Assembly (NCBI RefSeq): GCF_020860705.1
Contig: NZ_JAJBTT010000036.1
Location: forward strand, 62,001-126,000
Length of the DNA stretch: 64,000 bases
From: Akkermansia sp.
Lineage (GTDB): Bacteria > Verrucomicrobiota > Verrucomicrobiia > Verrucomicrobiales > Akkermansiaceae
Direction: 5' to 3'
The translations under genes and the position numbers were made by a program. Under the pieces are notes generated by a model. It was not told the DNA's origin. It worked only from the letters and a program-made list of their open reading frames with translations, and made no database searches. Below are positions 45,741 to 52,345 of the stretch, in pieces; the first letter of the stretch is position 1; the number at the start of each line of letters is the position of its first letter.

Positions 45741-46757
45741 TTAACCGCATTCCGGCAGTTTGCCCGTATCCCGCATGTACAACATTCTCCGAAGAACTTC
45801 CTTGGAAATCCGGTTCAAGTCAAAATGAACAGGAGGGGCATCCGGGAGAACGCCCCAGTCTCCATATTGTCCGTATAAAACCATTTCAGGCATCTTTGGT
45901 CCCGGAAAAGTCATTCCCTCAAACAGGACGTGGGACAGAGGGAACATCCATTCATGACGGAAAGAATGGCGGCAGGGACCGGCAAAAGGGATTTCAAAAC
46001 CAAGAAAGACGTTTCCCCCTTCAACAGGATCCCTTCCCTCCATCAGAAGCTCGTCCCGGATTTTCATCTTATCCTCATAAGAACACCGCGCCTGATAACG
46101 CTGAAATGAATCAGCCTTATAATCAATAAGTTCAGATGCCTTATAACCACGCTGCAGCCAATCCCGTTCCTCAGGATCATCCGGAGACCAGGAACCGGGT
46201 GCGACATCGTACGGGAAAATATCCACATTGCACAAGGTTCCGGGCAGTCCAATCTGAATAAACGGCTCCAGGTTGACGGAAAAGCCGCGGGAAACAAACA
46301 AATCGGCGGCATTCGCCCTCAGACGCTCATAGTCGCTCCGCAGCATGGAAATATCCAGATCATCATCCCACGGAATAAATCCCTTATGCCTGACCGCCCC
46401 CAGCAGAGTACCGAAATCCAGCCAGTACCGGTAGCCGTTTTCTTCAAGGAGATGGCCCACTTCCTTCAAAAATAACGCCATGGCTTGCTGTACAATCCTC
46501 AGCACGCCGGATGCCACCGGAAGATCCTCCGCACGAACGGTGGATTTTACCAGTTTTCTCAGCTGTGCATATTCATTTTCCTTCCCTACTTTGAACCGTC
46601 CACAGGGAATACCGAAAAACCGGATGGTGCGCTTTTTCCTGTCCGTGAATGAAGAGAGCACCTTCAGACCGCAACAACGTACTTCCGTCACCCACAAATG
46701 CTTATTTCCCTCTAACTTTCCGGTTCTTCTGGCAGTAACGAACGAAGGCAATTTCAT
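45741..46757 (-). CDS. LicD family phosphotransferase (copy 1)
   Basis: The 338-residue product has the LicD core LDFGTLLGAVRHKGFIPWDD with the acidic cluster Asp131-133 and Asp135. A further metal/nucleotide site in NVDIFPYDV follows. The first 85 residues are a divergent N-terminal part. LicD enzymes transfer phosphocholine or related phospho-alcohols from a CDP donor to sugars. The C-terminal half differs from copy 2, so the acceptor may differ. It is transcribed away from the fusion-enzyme gene. Confidence 0.88.
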   Translation of the reverse strand: MKLPSFVTARRTGKLEGNKHLWVTEVRCCGLKVLSSFTDRKKRTIRFFGIPCGRFKVGKENEYAQLRKLVKSTVRAEDLPVASGVLRIVQQAMALFLKEVGHLLEENGYRYWLDFGTLLGAVRHKGFIPWDDDLDISMLRSDYERLRANAADLFVSRGFSVNLEPFIQIGLPGTLCNVDIFPYDVAPGSWSPDDPEERDWLQRGYKASELIDYKADSFQRYQARCSYEDKMKIRDELLMEGRDPVEGGNVFLGFEIPFAGPCRHSFRHEWMFPLSHVLFEGMTFPGPKMPEMVLYGQYGDWGVLPDAPPVHFDLNRISKEVLRRMLYMRDTGKLPECG

Positions 46758-47188: not shown

Positions 47189-49057
47189 ATGCAGGCGATC
47201 ATTTTAGCGGCCGGAATGGGGAAAAGACTGGGTGCCCTCACGCGGAACAATACCAAATGCATGATTCAGATCAACGGTGTTACACTGATTGAGCGCATGC
47301 TGAAACAACTGGAAAATCTTTCCCCATCCCTGGAAAAAATCATCGTCGTTACGGGTTATGAAGGAGAAAAGCTCAAATCCTTCATTTCCCTGCTGGATAT
47401 TTCCACCCCTGTGGAATACGTGGATAATCCCCTTTACGCCACCACTAACAATATTTACTCCCTTTACCTGGCGAAGGAACACCTGTTGCAGGATGATACG
47501 CTGCTTTTTGAATCCGACCTGATTTTTGAAGATTCCGTCATTGACGTCCTGCTGCACCATCCCTACCCCAATCTGGCTCTCGTCGCCAAATTTGAAAGTT
47601 GGATGGACGGCACCGTCGTTACACTGGATGAAGACGACAACATCAAGCAGTTCATTCCCGGCAGCAAATTCTCCTACAAGAAGAAGACAGAATATTTTAA
47701 GACCGTCAACATTTACAAATTCAGCAGGGGCTTCTCCCATAGCCACTATGTCCCTTTCCTCTCCGCCTACAGCAAAGCTCTGGGCAACAATGAATATTAC
47801 GAGCAGGTGCTGCGGGTCATCGCCCTGCTGGACAAGCCGGAAATCAAAGCCCTGCGCCTTGGCAACGAGGCATGGTATGAAATAGACGATATCCAGGACC
47901 TGGACATAGCCGCATCCATGTTTACTCTGGACCAGGAGGAACATCTACGCTTGATGGAATCCCGGTATGGCGGCTACTGGCGCTACCCCCGCATTAAGGA
48001 TTTCTGTTACCTGGTCAACCCGTATTTTCCCAACAAACGCCTCATGTCCGAGCTCAAGGCGAACTTCGGGCACCTGGTCAGGGAATACCCGTCCGGCATG
48101 AGGGTGAACAGCCTGCTGGCCGCAAAATACTTCGGCATCGACCTGGAATATGTCTGCGTCGGGAACGGCGCTGCAGAACTGATCAAGGCGCTCATGTCCC
48201 GGCTGGAAGGAAAAATGGGGGTCATTTACCCCACCTTTGAAGAATACCCAAACAGGATGGCCCCGGACATGGTGGAACCCTTCCACACGGTGTCCAGGGA
48301 TTTCAGCTACACGGCGGACGACCTGATACAGTTTTTCTCCGGAAAAGACATTCAAACCCTGCTTCTGGTCAACCCGGGCAATCCTTCCGGCTTTTTCCTC
48401 CCTAAAGATGACGTCCTGCGCCTCTGCCTGTGGACGAAGGCCCACGGCATCCGCCTGATCGCGGATGAATCCTTTGTGGATTTCTCCCGCGGCATGCCGG
48501 ACAATACGCTGCTGCGAGATGACATCCTTGAGGAGCATCCACATCTGGCAGTGGTCAAAAGCATTTCAAAATCCTATGGCGTCCCGGGCCTCCGACTGGG
48601 CATACTGGCTTCAGCAGACCGGGAATTGATTGCATGGATGAAAAAGGATGTCTCCATCTGGAACATCAATTCCATTGCCGAATTCTACATGCAAATCTTC
48701 GGTAAATATGAACAATCCTACGTACGCGCATGCCACCGGTTCATGGAAGAACGGGACCGCTTCATGCAGGAACTCTCCCATATCCCCTTCCTGAACGTGT
48801 TCCCCTCCCAGGCAAACTACTTCATGTGCGAGGTAAAACCGCCTATGAAAGCACGTTCTCTGACCAGCCTTCTCTTGAAAAACTATTCCATCCTGATCAA
48901 GGATTGCAGCCGGAAAAAGGGCTTTGAAGGCCGGGAATTCATACGCATCGCCGTCAGGGATACTGCTGACAATGACACCCTGATCCGCGCCATGCGGGAG
49001 ACGGCCGCGCAAAACACCTCCCCCGACATCAGTCCCTTACCCACACATCATTCCTAA
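47189..49057 (+). CDS. LicC-like nucleotidyltransferase fused to a PLP aminotransferase-fold domain
   Basis: Residues 1 to about 240 form a sugar/alcohol-phosphate nucleotidyltransferase: LAAGMGKRLG at 7-16, a Lys in NTKCMIQING, and ESDLIFE for the metal. Residues from about 260 form a class I PLP fold like HisC, CobD or Cj1437: LVNPGNPSGFF near 395, ADESFVDF, and SISKSYGVPGLRLG with PLP Lys near 460. The C-terminal Arg lies in FIRIAVR. Such fusions (known from PntC-AEPT) make a phosphorylated amino-alcohol and activate it as a CDP derivative. Likely products are CDP-ethanolamine, CDP-serinol or CDP-aminoethylphosphonate; the sequence does not decide between them. Confidence 0.85.
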   Translation: MQAIILAAGMGKRLGALTRNNTKCMIQINGVTLIERMLKQLENLSPSLEKIIVVTGYEGEKLKSFISLLDISTPVEYVDNPLYATTNNIYSLYLAKEHLLQDDTLLFESDLIFEDSVIDVLLHHPYPNLALVAKFESWMDGTVVTLDEDDNIKQFIPGSKFSYKKKTEYFKTVNIYKFSRGFSHSHYVPFLSAYSKALGNNEYYEQVLRVIALLDKPEIKALRLGNEAWYEIDDIQDLDIAASMFTLDQEEHLRLMESRYGGYWRYPRIKDFCYLVNPYFPNKRLMSELKANFGHLVREYPSGMRVNSLLAAKYFGIDLEYVCVGNGAAELIKALMSRLEGKMGVIYPTFEEYPNRMAPDMVEPFHTVSRDFSYTADDLIQFFSGKDIQTLLLVNPGNPSGFFLPKDDVLRLCLWTKAHGIRLIADESFVDFSRGMPDNTLLRDDILEEHPHLAVVKSISKSYGVPGLRLGILASADRELIAWMKKDVSIWNINSIAEFYMQIFGKYEQSYVRACHRFMEERDRFMQELSHIPFLNVFPSQANYFMCEVKPPMKARSLTSLLLKNYSILIKDCSRKKGFEGREFIRIAVRDTADNDTLIRAMRETAAQNTSPDISPLPTHHS

Positions 49058-49073
49058 CACCCCGCGTACCCGC

Positions 49074-50027
49074 ATGCTGACCATCCCTCATGAAGTCATT
49101 TCATCCCTGGATATTTCCCCCCGTCAAGCTCTTCAATGGGTGAGGGAAAGCTTTTGCATTAAGGAACAAGGTCCGGTCTTCCTTCCGCATAAAACAAGCA
49201 TTGTATTTGAACAGGGCAAGTTCATGAACACGATGCCCTGCATCGCGCCCAGCTTAAACGCCATGGGGGTGAAAATCGTAACGCGTTATCCGGAACGGAC
49301 CAGAACTATTGATGGGGAAATTCTTCTTTACGATTATCGTACAGGAAGGCTGCTGGCACTTATGGACGCTTTCTGGGTCACAAACGCCCGCACGGGGGCT
49401 GTAGCCGCCCTGGCCCTTCAAACATTCATTAATCAAGATTTTCAGACTATTTCCCTCATGGGGCTGGGCAACACGGCCCGGGCCGCCATGGCATGCATTC
49501 TGTCACTGTATGCTGAGAAAAACTTCACGGTACGTCTTCTTACTTATAAAAACCAGGCTTCCCGATTCATCGAAGAATTTCAACACCATGCCAACGTCCG
49601 CTTTGAAGAAGAGGAGGATGTCAACAGATTGATTGACGGGGCTGATGCCGTCATTTCCTGCATTACAAATGCGGAAGGCATCCTTGCCGAAGACAGTTGT
49701 TTCAAACCGGGTGTTACTGTCATTCCCGTACATACCAAAGGTTTTCAAAACTGCGATCTGTTTTTCGACAAGGTATTTGCCGATGATCGTGATCATGTCA
49801 AGGGCTTCCGCTATTTTGAACAATTCCGTCAATTCGGGGAAATATCCTTGGTCCTGGCTGGAAAAACTGCCGGAAGAACTTCTGCGGAAGAACGCATCCT
49901 CAGCTACAATATCGGTCTGGGGCTTCATGACATCGTATTTGCCAGACACATTTATGATCTCCTGGTCAACGTAGAAGGACAGGAGGAAAACCCTTCTTTC
50001 TTTCATTTCCAGAGACCGATACGCTGA
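49074..50027 (+). CDS. Ornithine cyclodeaminase/mu-crystallin family protein
   Basis: The 317-residue product has the family features: MGVKIVTRYPE with the substrate lysine, TNARTGAVAALAL, a Rossmann motif SLMGLGNTARAAMA, ADAVISCITNAEG and the Asp pair in FADDRDHV. Members include ornithine cyclodeaminase, ketimine reductases, alanine dehydrogenase-like enzymes and SbnB. It starts 16 bases after the fusion gene, so it is probably co-transcribed and may supply or recycle an amino or imino intermediate. It ends 6 bases from the converging fusion gene. Confidence 0.85.
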   Translation: MLTIPHEVISSLDISPRQALQWVRESFCIKEQGPVFLPHKTSIVFEQGKFMNTMPCIAPSLNAMGVKIVTRYPERTRTIDGEILLYDYRTGRLLALMDAFWVTNARTGAVAALALQTFINQDFQTISLMGLGNTARAAMACILSLYAEKNFTVRLLTYKNQASRFIEEFQHHANVRFEEEEDVNRLIDGADAVISCITNAEGILAEDSCFKPGVTVIPVHTKGFQNCDLFFDKVFADDRDHVKGFRYFEQFRQFGEISLVLAGKTAGRTSAEERILSYNIGLGLHDIVFARHIYDLLVNVEGQEENPSFFHFQRPIR

Positions 50028-50033
50028 CCAGCG

Positions 50034-51389
50034 TCATCTAATCTCCTCAGCACTGTTGTCTTCCAGAAACTGTTGCGTGACGTCAGCCATGAACAGGGAA
50101 TCCTCCTTGGACATGAGACGCGCTTCATGGCAACAGCCGTGAATCAGGCGCAAAAAGGCGGCAAGTTCATAACGCAGGCCGTCGCCTTCAAATTTGATGA
50201 AATACTTCCTGTTGAGCCGGGTGTCCTCAAAGCGCACTTCAAACAAATCCGTCTTCCACCACGGAGCTGGCACATAAATGTAACCCTGCGTTCCCGTAAT
50301 GCACAAATCCCCCTCTCGCTTGGCCCCGATGGCGACCGTGGCGGAAGCGACCGCATGGGGATAAAGAAACTCGGCGCGCGTAAAAATATCCACGCCTGTC
50401 TGCGACTTTCTGCAGGTCACAAAGTGGATCCCGCGGGGTTCCGTGCCCAACAGTTTTCCAATGACAAAAACGGGATAGGCCCCCAGCTCCGTCCATGAAC
50501 CTCCGGCCTGCATGGGATCGTATTCCCTGGCGGAATCATCCTCAATCAACTTGGTGAACGTGGCGTCCACTGCTTTAATAGAGCCGATGACGCCGCTCTC
50601 CGCCACGCCTATCAACTGCTGGAATGCAGGGAAAAACGCCGTTTTCAGAGCTTCCAGTAAAATGCATCCCTTCTCGGCCGCAAGCTGGAACAATTCTTCC
50701 ACCGCCTTGCGGGAAAGGGCCAGAGGCTTTTCACACAGCACATGCTTCCCTTTCATAAGAGCCTTCCTGACCAGCTCTTCATGCAGATGATGCGGAACGG
50801 CGATGTACACGGAATCGACCTTATCCAGGAACCGTTCATACTCCGTATAATATTCCGGCAGCTCATAAGACTCCGCAAAACGGCGCACCTTTTCTTCATT
50901 CCGTCCGTAAACGGCTGTTATTTCAATTCCGCTGACATATCTGGACTCCTGTAAAAACCGGCCCGCTATCCTGCCACAACCGGCAATCCCCATATGGATA
51001 ATGAAATTCCGTGCGGACCGGAGATCTGTTGAAGAAACTCCCTTGGTACGTTCCAGATAAACTACCTCGCAATGCTCGCAGAGAAAATCAAACTTTCCCG
51101 TCCAGTCCGACCCGATCGCAAAAATATCCGCCCCATATTTCTGGATGTCGTGTAATTTCTGCCCTTCCAGCTCCTCCGTAATAATGAGGTCCGCCAAACC
51201 CGTCTTCCGAACGTTCTCCATGCGCTCCGCCAGGCTCTGCATCACATTCAGCTTGCCACGGCTCTGGTCATAACTATCCGTAGTTACGCCAACAATAAGA
51301 CGGTCTCCAAGTGCTTTAGCCCTTTTGAGCAGATTGAGATGGCCCGTATGAAGAAGGTCGAAGGTGCCATAGGTAATAACCGTTTTCAT
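50034..51389 (-). CDS. TagD-like cytidylyltransferase fused to a Gfo/Idh/MocA oxidoreductase
   Basis: Residues 1-130 are a glycerol-3-phosphate-cytidylyltransferase-like domain: TYGTFDLLHTGHLNLL with HTGH at 14-17, and RTKGVSSTDLR near 114-124. Residues from 132 are a Gfo/Idh/MocA dehydrogenase with GIAGCGRIAGRF, YIAVPHHLHEELV and the catalytic CEKPLALS. A reductase making a polyol phosphate plus its cytidylyltransferase in one chain would parallel bifunctional CDP-ribitol enzymes, built from different folds. Start overlaps the LicD copy 2 stop by 4 bases (ATGA). Confidence 0.87.
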   Translation of the reverse strand: MKTVITYGTFDLLHTGHLNLLKRAKALGDRLIVGVTTDSYDQSRGKLNVMQSLAERMENVRKTGLADLIITEELEGQKLHDIQKYGADIFAIGSDWTGKFDFLCEHCEVVYLERTKGVSSTDLRSARNFIIHMGIAGCGRIAGRFLQESRYVSGIEITAVYGRNEEKVRRFAESYELPEYYTEYERFLDKVDSVYIAVPHHLHEELVRKALMKGKHVLCEKPLALSRKAVEELFQLAAEKGCILLEALKTAFFPAFQQLIGVAESGVIGSIKAVDATFTKLIEDDSAREYDPMQAGGSWTELGAYPVFVIGKLLGTEPRGIHFVTCRKSQTGVDIFTRAEFLYPHAVASATVAIGAKREGDLCITGTQGYIYVPAPWWKTDLFEVRFEDTRLNRKYFIKFEGDGLRYELAAFLRLIHGCCHEARLMSKEDSLFMADVTQQFLEDNSAEEIR

Positions 51390-52345
51390 GAATGAGGTGT
51401 ATCAATCTGCTTGCCGTAAATGTCAATGAAACGGTTGACAGCCGTTTCAAAGGGAACATGCTCCACCATATATTTTACAGAAGGATGCTTAAACTGTATC
51501 CGCGGCGGATAGGACAGGTAGTCGCCATAAAAAAATTGCAGGTACTGGCGTGCATGGTTAGGCACGGAAAATTTCAATCCCTCAAAATCCATGGTCCCCA
51601 AGGGGAAAAACGTCTCATAGGGAAGATGAGTGTTTTTCGTAAAGGTAATGGCCGGAGAAAGGAAAATCCCGGGGAAGTCTTCCTCCGCAGCAGGCTTTTT
51701 CCCATCCAGAATCTCCCGGCGGATTTTCTGCTGAATCTGTTCGTCGCTTATATTCATCCGGTCCCCCATCAGCACGACATCCTTCTTGAACACAGTCAGC
51801 CGCCTGTCCAGCCTGCCGTGCTGTTCTGGAGAAATAAGGCTTTCTGAATAAAAATGATAGGGGTATACGTCAATGTTAAGGGGGGTGCCCTCATAACCTA
51901 TCTGCAAGAAGGCGTGCCGTTTCCAGGTAAACCCTTCCTCCTGGGGAAAAAGGGAGGGCAGCAGTTCCAGAAGGCGATCGTATTCCGGCCTCATCATGCT
52001 TGCATCCAAATCATCGTCCCAAGGAATAAATCCCCTGTGCCTCACCGCACCCAGCAGAGTTCCATAATCCAGCCAGTACCGCAGACCGTTCTCCCGGCAT
52101 TTCCGCGCAAAAAGAGCCAGTAAAACGGTATTACCATCCTGCAATAAGCGCAGTTTTCCCACCGCCCGCGGGACCTGGGAAACAGGATGGTTATAAATGA
52201 GAATATTGCGGATATCCTCCAGTTGCGCCGTTACGGACCGATCTTTCTTTCCTCTGTAAAAATGCGCAATGCGACGGATCATCCCCCGGAGATAACCGGG
52301 CAACGTGCATGCCACCATATATTTCACGCGAGAAAAGTTCATCAT
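51386..52345 (-). CDS. LicD family phosphotransferase (copy 2)
   Basis: The 319-residue product has the LicD core WLDYGTLLGAVRHRGFIPWD with Asp110-112 and Asp114, and NIDVYPYHF. It is shorter at the N-terminus than copy 1. It is co-translated with the TagD/Gfo fusion, which suggests it uses that enzyme's CDP product. Reaction partner and acceptor are unknown. Confidence 0.88.
   Translation of the reverse strand: MMNFSRVKYMVACTLPGYLRGMIRRIAHFYRGKKDRSVTAQLEDIRNILIYNHPVSQVPRAVGKLRLLQDGNTVLLALFARKCRENGLRYWLDYGTLLGAVRHRGFIPWDDDLDASMMRPEYDRLLELLPSLFPQEEGFTWKRHAFLQIGYEGTPLNIDVYPYHFYSESLISPEQHGRLDRRLTVFKKDVVLMGDRMNISDEQIQQKIRREILDGKKPAAEEDFPGIFLSPAITFTKNTHLPYETFFPLGTMDFEGLKFSVPNHARQYLQFFYGDYLSYPPRIQFKHPSVKYMVEHVPFETAVNRFIDIYGKQIDTPHS

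Follow-up and report, generated by a model that had tools for sequence, protein, structure and literature searches.

INTRODUCTION

Judged by published description and not by sequence, the closest described single-chain design to the protein reported here is FrbH of the FR-900098 pathway, in which an N-terminal cytidylyltransferase is followed by a C-terminal decarboxylase that acts on 2-amino-4-phosphonobutyrate (PMC8976061, PMC6697681). PntC-AEPT of Treponema denticola (Tde1415; PDB 6pd1/6pd2) also carries a nucleotidyltransferase (NTase) and a PLP domain in one chain and in the same order as our protein, with a Glu facing the primary amine. Its PLP half, however, is a class V AEP transaminase that acts in concert with PEP mutase and phosphonopyruvate decarboxylase, whereas the PLP half of our protein is of the Aminotran_1_2 family and CobD/HisC-like. 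A third described system, the LicC/LicD phosphocholine pathway, resembles the locus in joining a LicC-type NTase to LicD-family transferases under the same activation logic.

In a 64,000-nucleotide window from Akkermansia sp. (the whole stretch of DNA analyzed), an open reading frame (ORF) at 47189-49057 (+) encodes a 622-amino-acid protein, here called the fusion, with an FrbH-type architecture: an NTase and, behind it in the same chain, a PLP decarboxylase domain of the CobD kind (PMC8976061 for FrbH). FrbH has a phosphonate substrate and belongs to an antibiotic pathway, while the fusion is found in a genome without PEP mutase and in a locus with LicD and OCD genes. By chemical reasoning, replacing the ester oxygen of O-phosphoserine with CH2 gives 2-amino-4-phosphonobutyrate; the two are isosteres, and chemistry like that of FrbH would turn phosphoserine into CDP-ethanolamine. 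We postulate, as a moderately probable reading, that the fusion is an FrbH-like bifunctional enzyme that makes CDP-ethanolamine, that a partner reductase N-carboxyalkylates the headgroup, and that LicD proteins transfer it. Domain content and family placement, the conservation of catalytic residues, the lack of PEP mutase, and a tight coupling to LicD and to either of two interchangeable types of reductase were computed directly; the substrates, step order, and acceptor are inferred.

RESULTS

Architecture and distribution of the fusion

The initial annotation had read this ORF, with exactly the same ends, as a LicC-like cytidylyltransferase and a PLP enzyme in a single chain. Pfam, PDB relatives, and the structure prediction that it had called for all bear this out. 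Pfam places NTP_transf_3 at residues 3 to 133 and Aminotran_1_2 at residues 311 to 601 (1.7e-31), making the first half MobA/LicC-like and the second a fold-type-I PLP domain of the class I/II aminotransferase fold. In the PDB, the N-terminal half matches LicC 1jyk (4e-12, and 1e-12 in a second comparison) and PntC 6pd1 (1.4e-10), and the C-terminal half matches 6oux (8e-44), CobD 1lc5 (1.5e-34), and HisC. An AlphaFold2 model has two well-formed domains (mean pLDDT, 88; pTM, 0.84).

Relatives of the fusion occur at 557 or more places in genome contigs, and a 36-member alignment from several phyla shows no variation at the active-site residues of the NTase and PLP domains, Lys461 among them, which excludes a chance ORF. 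No full-length relatives were found in the phage collection searched. Of 86 fusion ORFs, 82 have K at position 461; those of a single organism (L022/L031) have E, and in two the residue did not resolve. One copy (L024 7607-9160 and a 3' piece; G024) is broken into 517 and about 102 codons by a frameshift or a sequencing error.

TABLE 1 Features of the fusion locus, in positions of the window
Feature	Coordinates	Strand	Basis
LicD-family phosphotransferase, divergent from the fusion	45741..46757	-	PF04991 8e-29
Cytidylyltransferase domain, LicC/PntC-like (residues 1-245)	47189..47923	+	NTP_transf_3, NTP_transferase; LicC 1jyk, PntC 6pd1
PLP domain, CobD/serine-phosphate-decarboxylase-like (residues 266-610)	47984..49018	+	Aminotran_1_2; 6oux match; tree; Foldseek
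Lys461 codon, PLP Schiff-base lysine (motif SISKSYG)	48569..48571	+	Invariant in 36-member alignment
OCD/mu-crystallin-family reductase, 16 bases after the fusion	49074..50027	+	PF02423 4e-26, 92 bits vs gathering score 24
TagD-like (glycerol-3-phosphate cytidylyltransferase) domain fused to Gfo/Idh/MocA oxidoreductase	50034..51389	-	TIGR01518 1.3e-32, PF01408 9e-27
Second LicD-family phosphotransferase	51386..52345	-	PF04991 2e-32

The cytidylyltransferase half

Seven residues of the NTase domain (G9, G11, R13, K23, D110, E231, and D233) are invariant across the 36 fusion relatives, supplying the GxGxR...K motif of LicC and the metal-binding acids. E108, equally invariant, aligns with E104 of PntC and differs from the choline-type Asp105 of LicC. 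PntC places Glu104 and Glu196 close to the AEP primary amine, and LicC carries Asp instead (PMC6697681). Because Glu108 takes the position of PntC Glu104, phosphoethanolamine is favored over choline; a preference of the fusion NTase for this small primary amine is suggestive only, as it concerns a single residue. No choline kinase-type gene was seen beside the fusion. The locus would also depart from the LicC/LicD pathway in Glu108 and in making the headgroup amine from an amino acid.

LicD and other neighboring genes

LicD genes lie near the fusion in 53 of 86 cases. The TagD-Gfo/Idh/MocA gene of the window is convergent with the fusion-OCD pair, its start overlaps a LicD gene, and it is kept beside the fusion in five loci of the same genus and in L068 (Bacteroidales). 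It probably provides a second CDP-headgroup route, possibly for a modified headgroup, and its membership in the fusion pathway is uncertain. Among distant members, that of Gloeothece has a methyltransferase gene and LicD next in line, and those of Erwinia and Agrobacterium have a CDP-alcohol phosphotransferase gene there; these neighbors fit an ethanolamine-type product. An IspD-LicD fusion lies just upstream of the NTase-PLP fusion in two loci (L049 6286-7941 and L050 6412-7941). A DUF1015 protein is encoded immediately downstream of the fusion in three genomes, from Fusobacterium, Bacillus, and the Lachnospiraceae (L105 8820-9869, L057 9860-10957, and L060 7683-8939), and a link to phosphoserine supply is possible.

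The reductase partner

The initial annotation missed both FrbH and the OCD-family neighbor. The nearest PDB entries to the latter are pyrroline-2-carboxylate reductase 6t3e and thiomorpholine-carboxylate dehydrogenase 4bv8, and its reaction is not fixed by its family because the family also has alanine dehydrogenases and cyclodeaminases. In other loci, the place of OCD next to the fusion is taken by an opine dehydrogenase of the Octopine_DH family (ODH; PF02317). Among 84 nonduplicate fusion loci, 57 have the fusion beside or fused to an ODH or OCD gene: the next same-strand gene is ODH in 33 and OCD in 16 (49 together), an ODH or OCD gene lies upstream on the same strand in 5, and ODH is fused in 3. 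The median gap to the 49 downstream partners is -1 base, and 46 of them lie within 30 bases. The type of partner changes at least 13 times on the fusion tree. In three Prevotellaceae/Muribaculaceae genomes (L094, L096, and L101), NTase, PLP, and ODH form a single chain of 943 to 946 aa, and ODH-LicD single chains occur in L085, L100, and L102. A survey of the genus found ODH or strong OCD (E below 1e-20) in 8 of 10 fusion-bearing genomes versus 1 of 49 others (Fisher p 2e-7, uncorrected for kinship of the genomes).

The partner ODHs are nearest to octopine dehydrogenase 3c7a (1.6e-31); they have the Octopine_DH domain and show at least 90% conservation at the positions of His and Asp, catalytic in octopine dehydrogenase, and of the accompanying Arg. 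Both folds reduce C=N bonds adjoining a carboxylate, and N-carboxyalkylation of the headgroup amine is therefore the simplest role that the two kinds of partner could share. Although the partners belong to the octopine dehydrogenase and OCD ketimine reductase families, they are coupled here to a CDP-headgroup synthase and LicD rather than to amino acid or opine metabolism.

One alternative is that LicD receives unmodified CDP-ethanolamine from the fusion and that the OCD or ODH protein has another target, such as the glycan or a separate amino acid. All of the evidence for the decarboxylase and cytidylyltransferase halves would serve this reading, as would the latitude in the OCD reaction and the 25 of 84 loci that have no adjacent ODH or OCD gene (in part since contigs end there). 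We nevertheless consider it unlikely, given the presence of ODH in one chain with the fusion, the near-zero spacing, and the repeated exchange, in the same position, of two unrelated C=N/N-alkyl dehydrogenase folds.

A single organism (G134; L022/L031) carries a fusion (L022 7580-9421, -) in which the PLP lysine is replaced by Glu (SISEASG) and neighboring motifs are altered, while the cytidylyltransferase half looks intact. Its PLP half seems to be decaying with the NTase half kept. In this one case, no ODH or OCD gene was detected beside the fusion or anywhere in the genome at E <= 0.001.

Identity of the PLP half

By sequence, the nearest solved relative of the PLP domain, ahead of CobD, is 6oux (about 29% identity), whose PDB title is "a decarboxylase from Sulfurospirillum multivorans." We take this protein to be SMUL_1544, the L-serine-O-phosphate decarboxylase of norcobamide synthesis in S. 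multivorans; SMUL_1544 is reported to act on L-serine-O-phosphate (Keller et al. 2019). It is a single-domain cobamide enzyme, unlike the two-domain fusion.

A tree was built from fusions, distant plasmid homologues, 6oux, Salmonella enterica CobD, HisC of Escherichia coli and Medicago, and CobD domains of the same phylum. The fusions, the plasmid homologues, and 6oux grouped together (100/99), separate from the CobD and HisC sequences; the 6oux branch was long, and the tool warned of long-branch joining. The fusion and 6oux have in common the motifs CYLxNPY, YPS, GNGAxE, DESF, WNIN, and RxAxR, at the last three of which HisC differs, and the residues C273-Y274-L275, Ser302, S428-F429, W491-N492, and R590. 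In HisC, Tyr occupies aligned positions 429 and 491, and Gly occupies 590; the Tyr at 429, in the DEAY position, is the PLP-contacting Tyr of aminotransferases. Foldseek matches to the PLP domain of the AlphaFold2 model were led by 6oux (target-normalized TM, 0.79 to 0.85) and CobD 1lc7 (0.85), and decarboxylase structures stood above HisC structures among the PLP-only matches.

With its PLP lysine, shared motifs, and grouping apart from CobD and HisC, the fusion appears SMUL_1544-like by sequence, subject to the long-branch warning. The initial annotation had described the PLP half as CobD/HisC-like and not class V, which agrees with the Aminotran_1_2 assignment and with the 6oux, CobD, and HisC matches, and it had proposed comparing the PLP-site residues with CobD and HisC. 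It had offered two products, CDP-ethanolamine by way of a phosphoserine decarboxylase and CDP-serinol by way of a transaminase on DHAP. The grouping and motifs shared with 6oux favor the first, and the second fared less well.

In the transaminase reading, the PLP domain would be Cj1437-like and its CDP-serinol possibly N-modified afterwards. Cj1437 is a characterized DHAP transaminase of HisC-type fold, and the fusion domain is in the same superfamily as HisC. Against this, the domain groups with the serine-phosphate decarboxylase in the tree with CobD and HisC, Phe429 stands in place of the aminotransferase Tyr, other HisC features are absent, and decarboxylases outrank HisC structurally, so that we regard a DHAP transaminase as improbable. 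The HisC profile TIGR01141 scored 125 bits against a cutoff of 276.55.

There is a slim chance that the domain is CobD-like in function, decarboxylating L-threonine-O-3-phosphate to yield CDP-1-aminopropan-2-ol. The CobD profile TIGR01140 is its best NCBIfam match, yet at 165 bits it falls below the cutoff of 290.55, and residues 273 to 275 are CYL, as in the serine-phosphate decarboxylase, rather than the S-A/V-N of most CobD sequences compared. We rejected the idea that the fusion serves as HisC or CobD in this genome because better candidates for both, a HisC-like gene (367 aa) and a CobD-like ORF (916 aa), are encoded elsewhere in the genome. The favored reading of the PLP half remains that of a putative phosphoserine decarboxylase leading to CDP-ethanolamine.

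Phosphonate metabolism

The initial annotation had cautioned that the fusion may not be a phosphonate enzyme and proposed a search for PEP mutase. In the genome that carries the fusion, the sole Pfam match over the cutoff, at first a candidate, proved to be PanB and was rejected, and a second match was below the cutoff; we conclude that PEP mutase is absent, and the caution was well placed. Among 40 genomes of other carriers, a clear PEP mutase was found in 2 (sister genomes L040/L043), in a separate three-domain ORF that does not adjoin the fusion in the stretch read. A Bacillus carrier has a 64-bit PEP-mutase match in a 487-aa ORF; from length and score, this ORF is probably isocitrate-lyase-like, and the remaining weak matches, mostly of 260 to 310 aa, are probably of the PanB kind. 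Since the fusion's own genome lacks PEP mutase and only these 2 of 40 carriers have a clear one, a general phosphonate role is not supported.

The alignment with PntC-AEPT 6pd1 covers only residues 2 to 243 of the fusion. PntC-AEPT gave the best whole-chain Foldseek matches but with an rmsd of about 22 Å over the entire chain, so the domains of the two proteins are arranged differently. We rejected the fusion as a PntC-AEPT because its PLP half is not class V and its genome has no PEP mutase. In L099 (Clostridiales), the 3' end of a phosphonopyruvate decarboxylase gene (2-523, +) lies 37 bases upstream of the fusion, cut by the contig end; PEP mutase was not found in this genome, and phosphonate use in some members is possible on account of this neighbor.

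That the fusion as such is a PntC-AEPT- or FrbH-like phosphonate enzyme acting on a C-P compound (CMP-AEP or similar) is the least probable of the readings, the whole-chain Foldseek matches, the L099 neighbor, the PEP mutase of two relatives, and a Glu108 like that of PntC being outweighed by a PLP half of another class, a different domain arrangement, and the rarity of PEP mutase among carriers.

Two Ruminococcus/Oscillospiraceae genomes (L112 and L113) encode a single ORF with NTP_transf-like, cytidylyltransferase-like, and PEP mutase regions.

DISCUSSION

The most likely reaction of the fusion would convert O-phospho-L-serine and CTP to CDP-ethanolamine. The PLP domain would decarboxylate O-phospho-L-serine, either free or after CMP attachment, the latter order having been reported for FrbH, and the cytidylyltransferase domain would join the decarboxylated product to CTP, giving soluble CDP-ethanolamine. 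OCD (or ODH) would then use NAD(P)H to reduce the imine that an alpha-keto acid, for example pyruvate, forms with the nitrogen of ethanolamine, producing an N-(1-carboxyalkyl)ethanolamine headgroup. LicD-type transferases would move the phospho-headgroup onto a surface glycan. Octopine dehydrogenase itself uses pyruvate and gives an R (D) product.

A compound of this type is found in nature: N-[(R)-1-carboxyethyl]ethanolamine phosphate (R-Cet-EtnP) is listed as an O-polysaccharide component in a review of Proteus and Klebsiella (PMC9630907). In a limited full-text literature search, we found no genes assigned to N-(1-carboxyethyl)ethanolamine phosphate; nor did we find a link among Proteus O-antigen clusters, LicD, and octopine dehydrogenase, or, in a general search for an earlier account of the pathway, anything related. 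The genes described here would be candidates for this component.

Taken together, the fusion and its swappable reductase suggest that many bacteria decorate their surfaces with an opine-like group by a pathway not described before. A fuller version of this idea, to which we give slightly less than an even chance, is that Bacteroidota, Bacillota, and Verrucomicrobiota have in common a widespread pathway that turns phosphoserine and a keto acid into CDP-activated headgroups of the opine type, N-(1-carboxyalkyl)ethanolamine phosphate, for transfer by LicD to surface glycans. The exchanges between ODH and OCD could then give opposite stereoisomers or other carboxyalkyl parts and so different surface antigens. 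If this is true, a zwitterionic or opine-like surface group is predicted in Akkermansia and many other gut bacteria. With the fusion, a single bacterial polypeptide would take phosphoserine to CDP-ethanolamine by a soluble route, and the current database name of the protein, "aminotransferase class I/II-fold PLP-dependent enzyme," would be corrected.

A more distant homologue (31% identity) is encoded on Priestia megaterium plasmid pBM700 (L109/L111). Its neighbors include FrbG/FrbF-like genes and comprise an N-oxygenase-like gene, an AAC(3)-family acyltransferase, two ATP-grasp genes, and a DXP reductoisomerase (DXR); the FrbG/FrbF-like genes and DXR likewise suit an ethanolamine-type product. 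N-oxygenase, acyltransferase, and DXP reductoisomerase genes are typical of FR-900098-type clusters. The 46 kb examined contain no annotated PEP mutase, and the pBM700 cluster may make a phosphate analogue of FR-900098/fosmidomycin.
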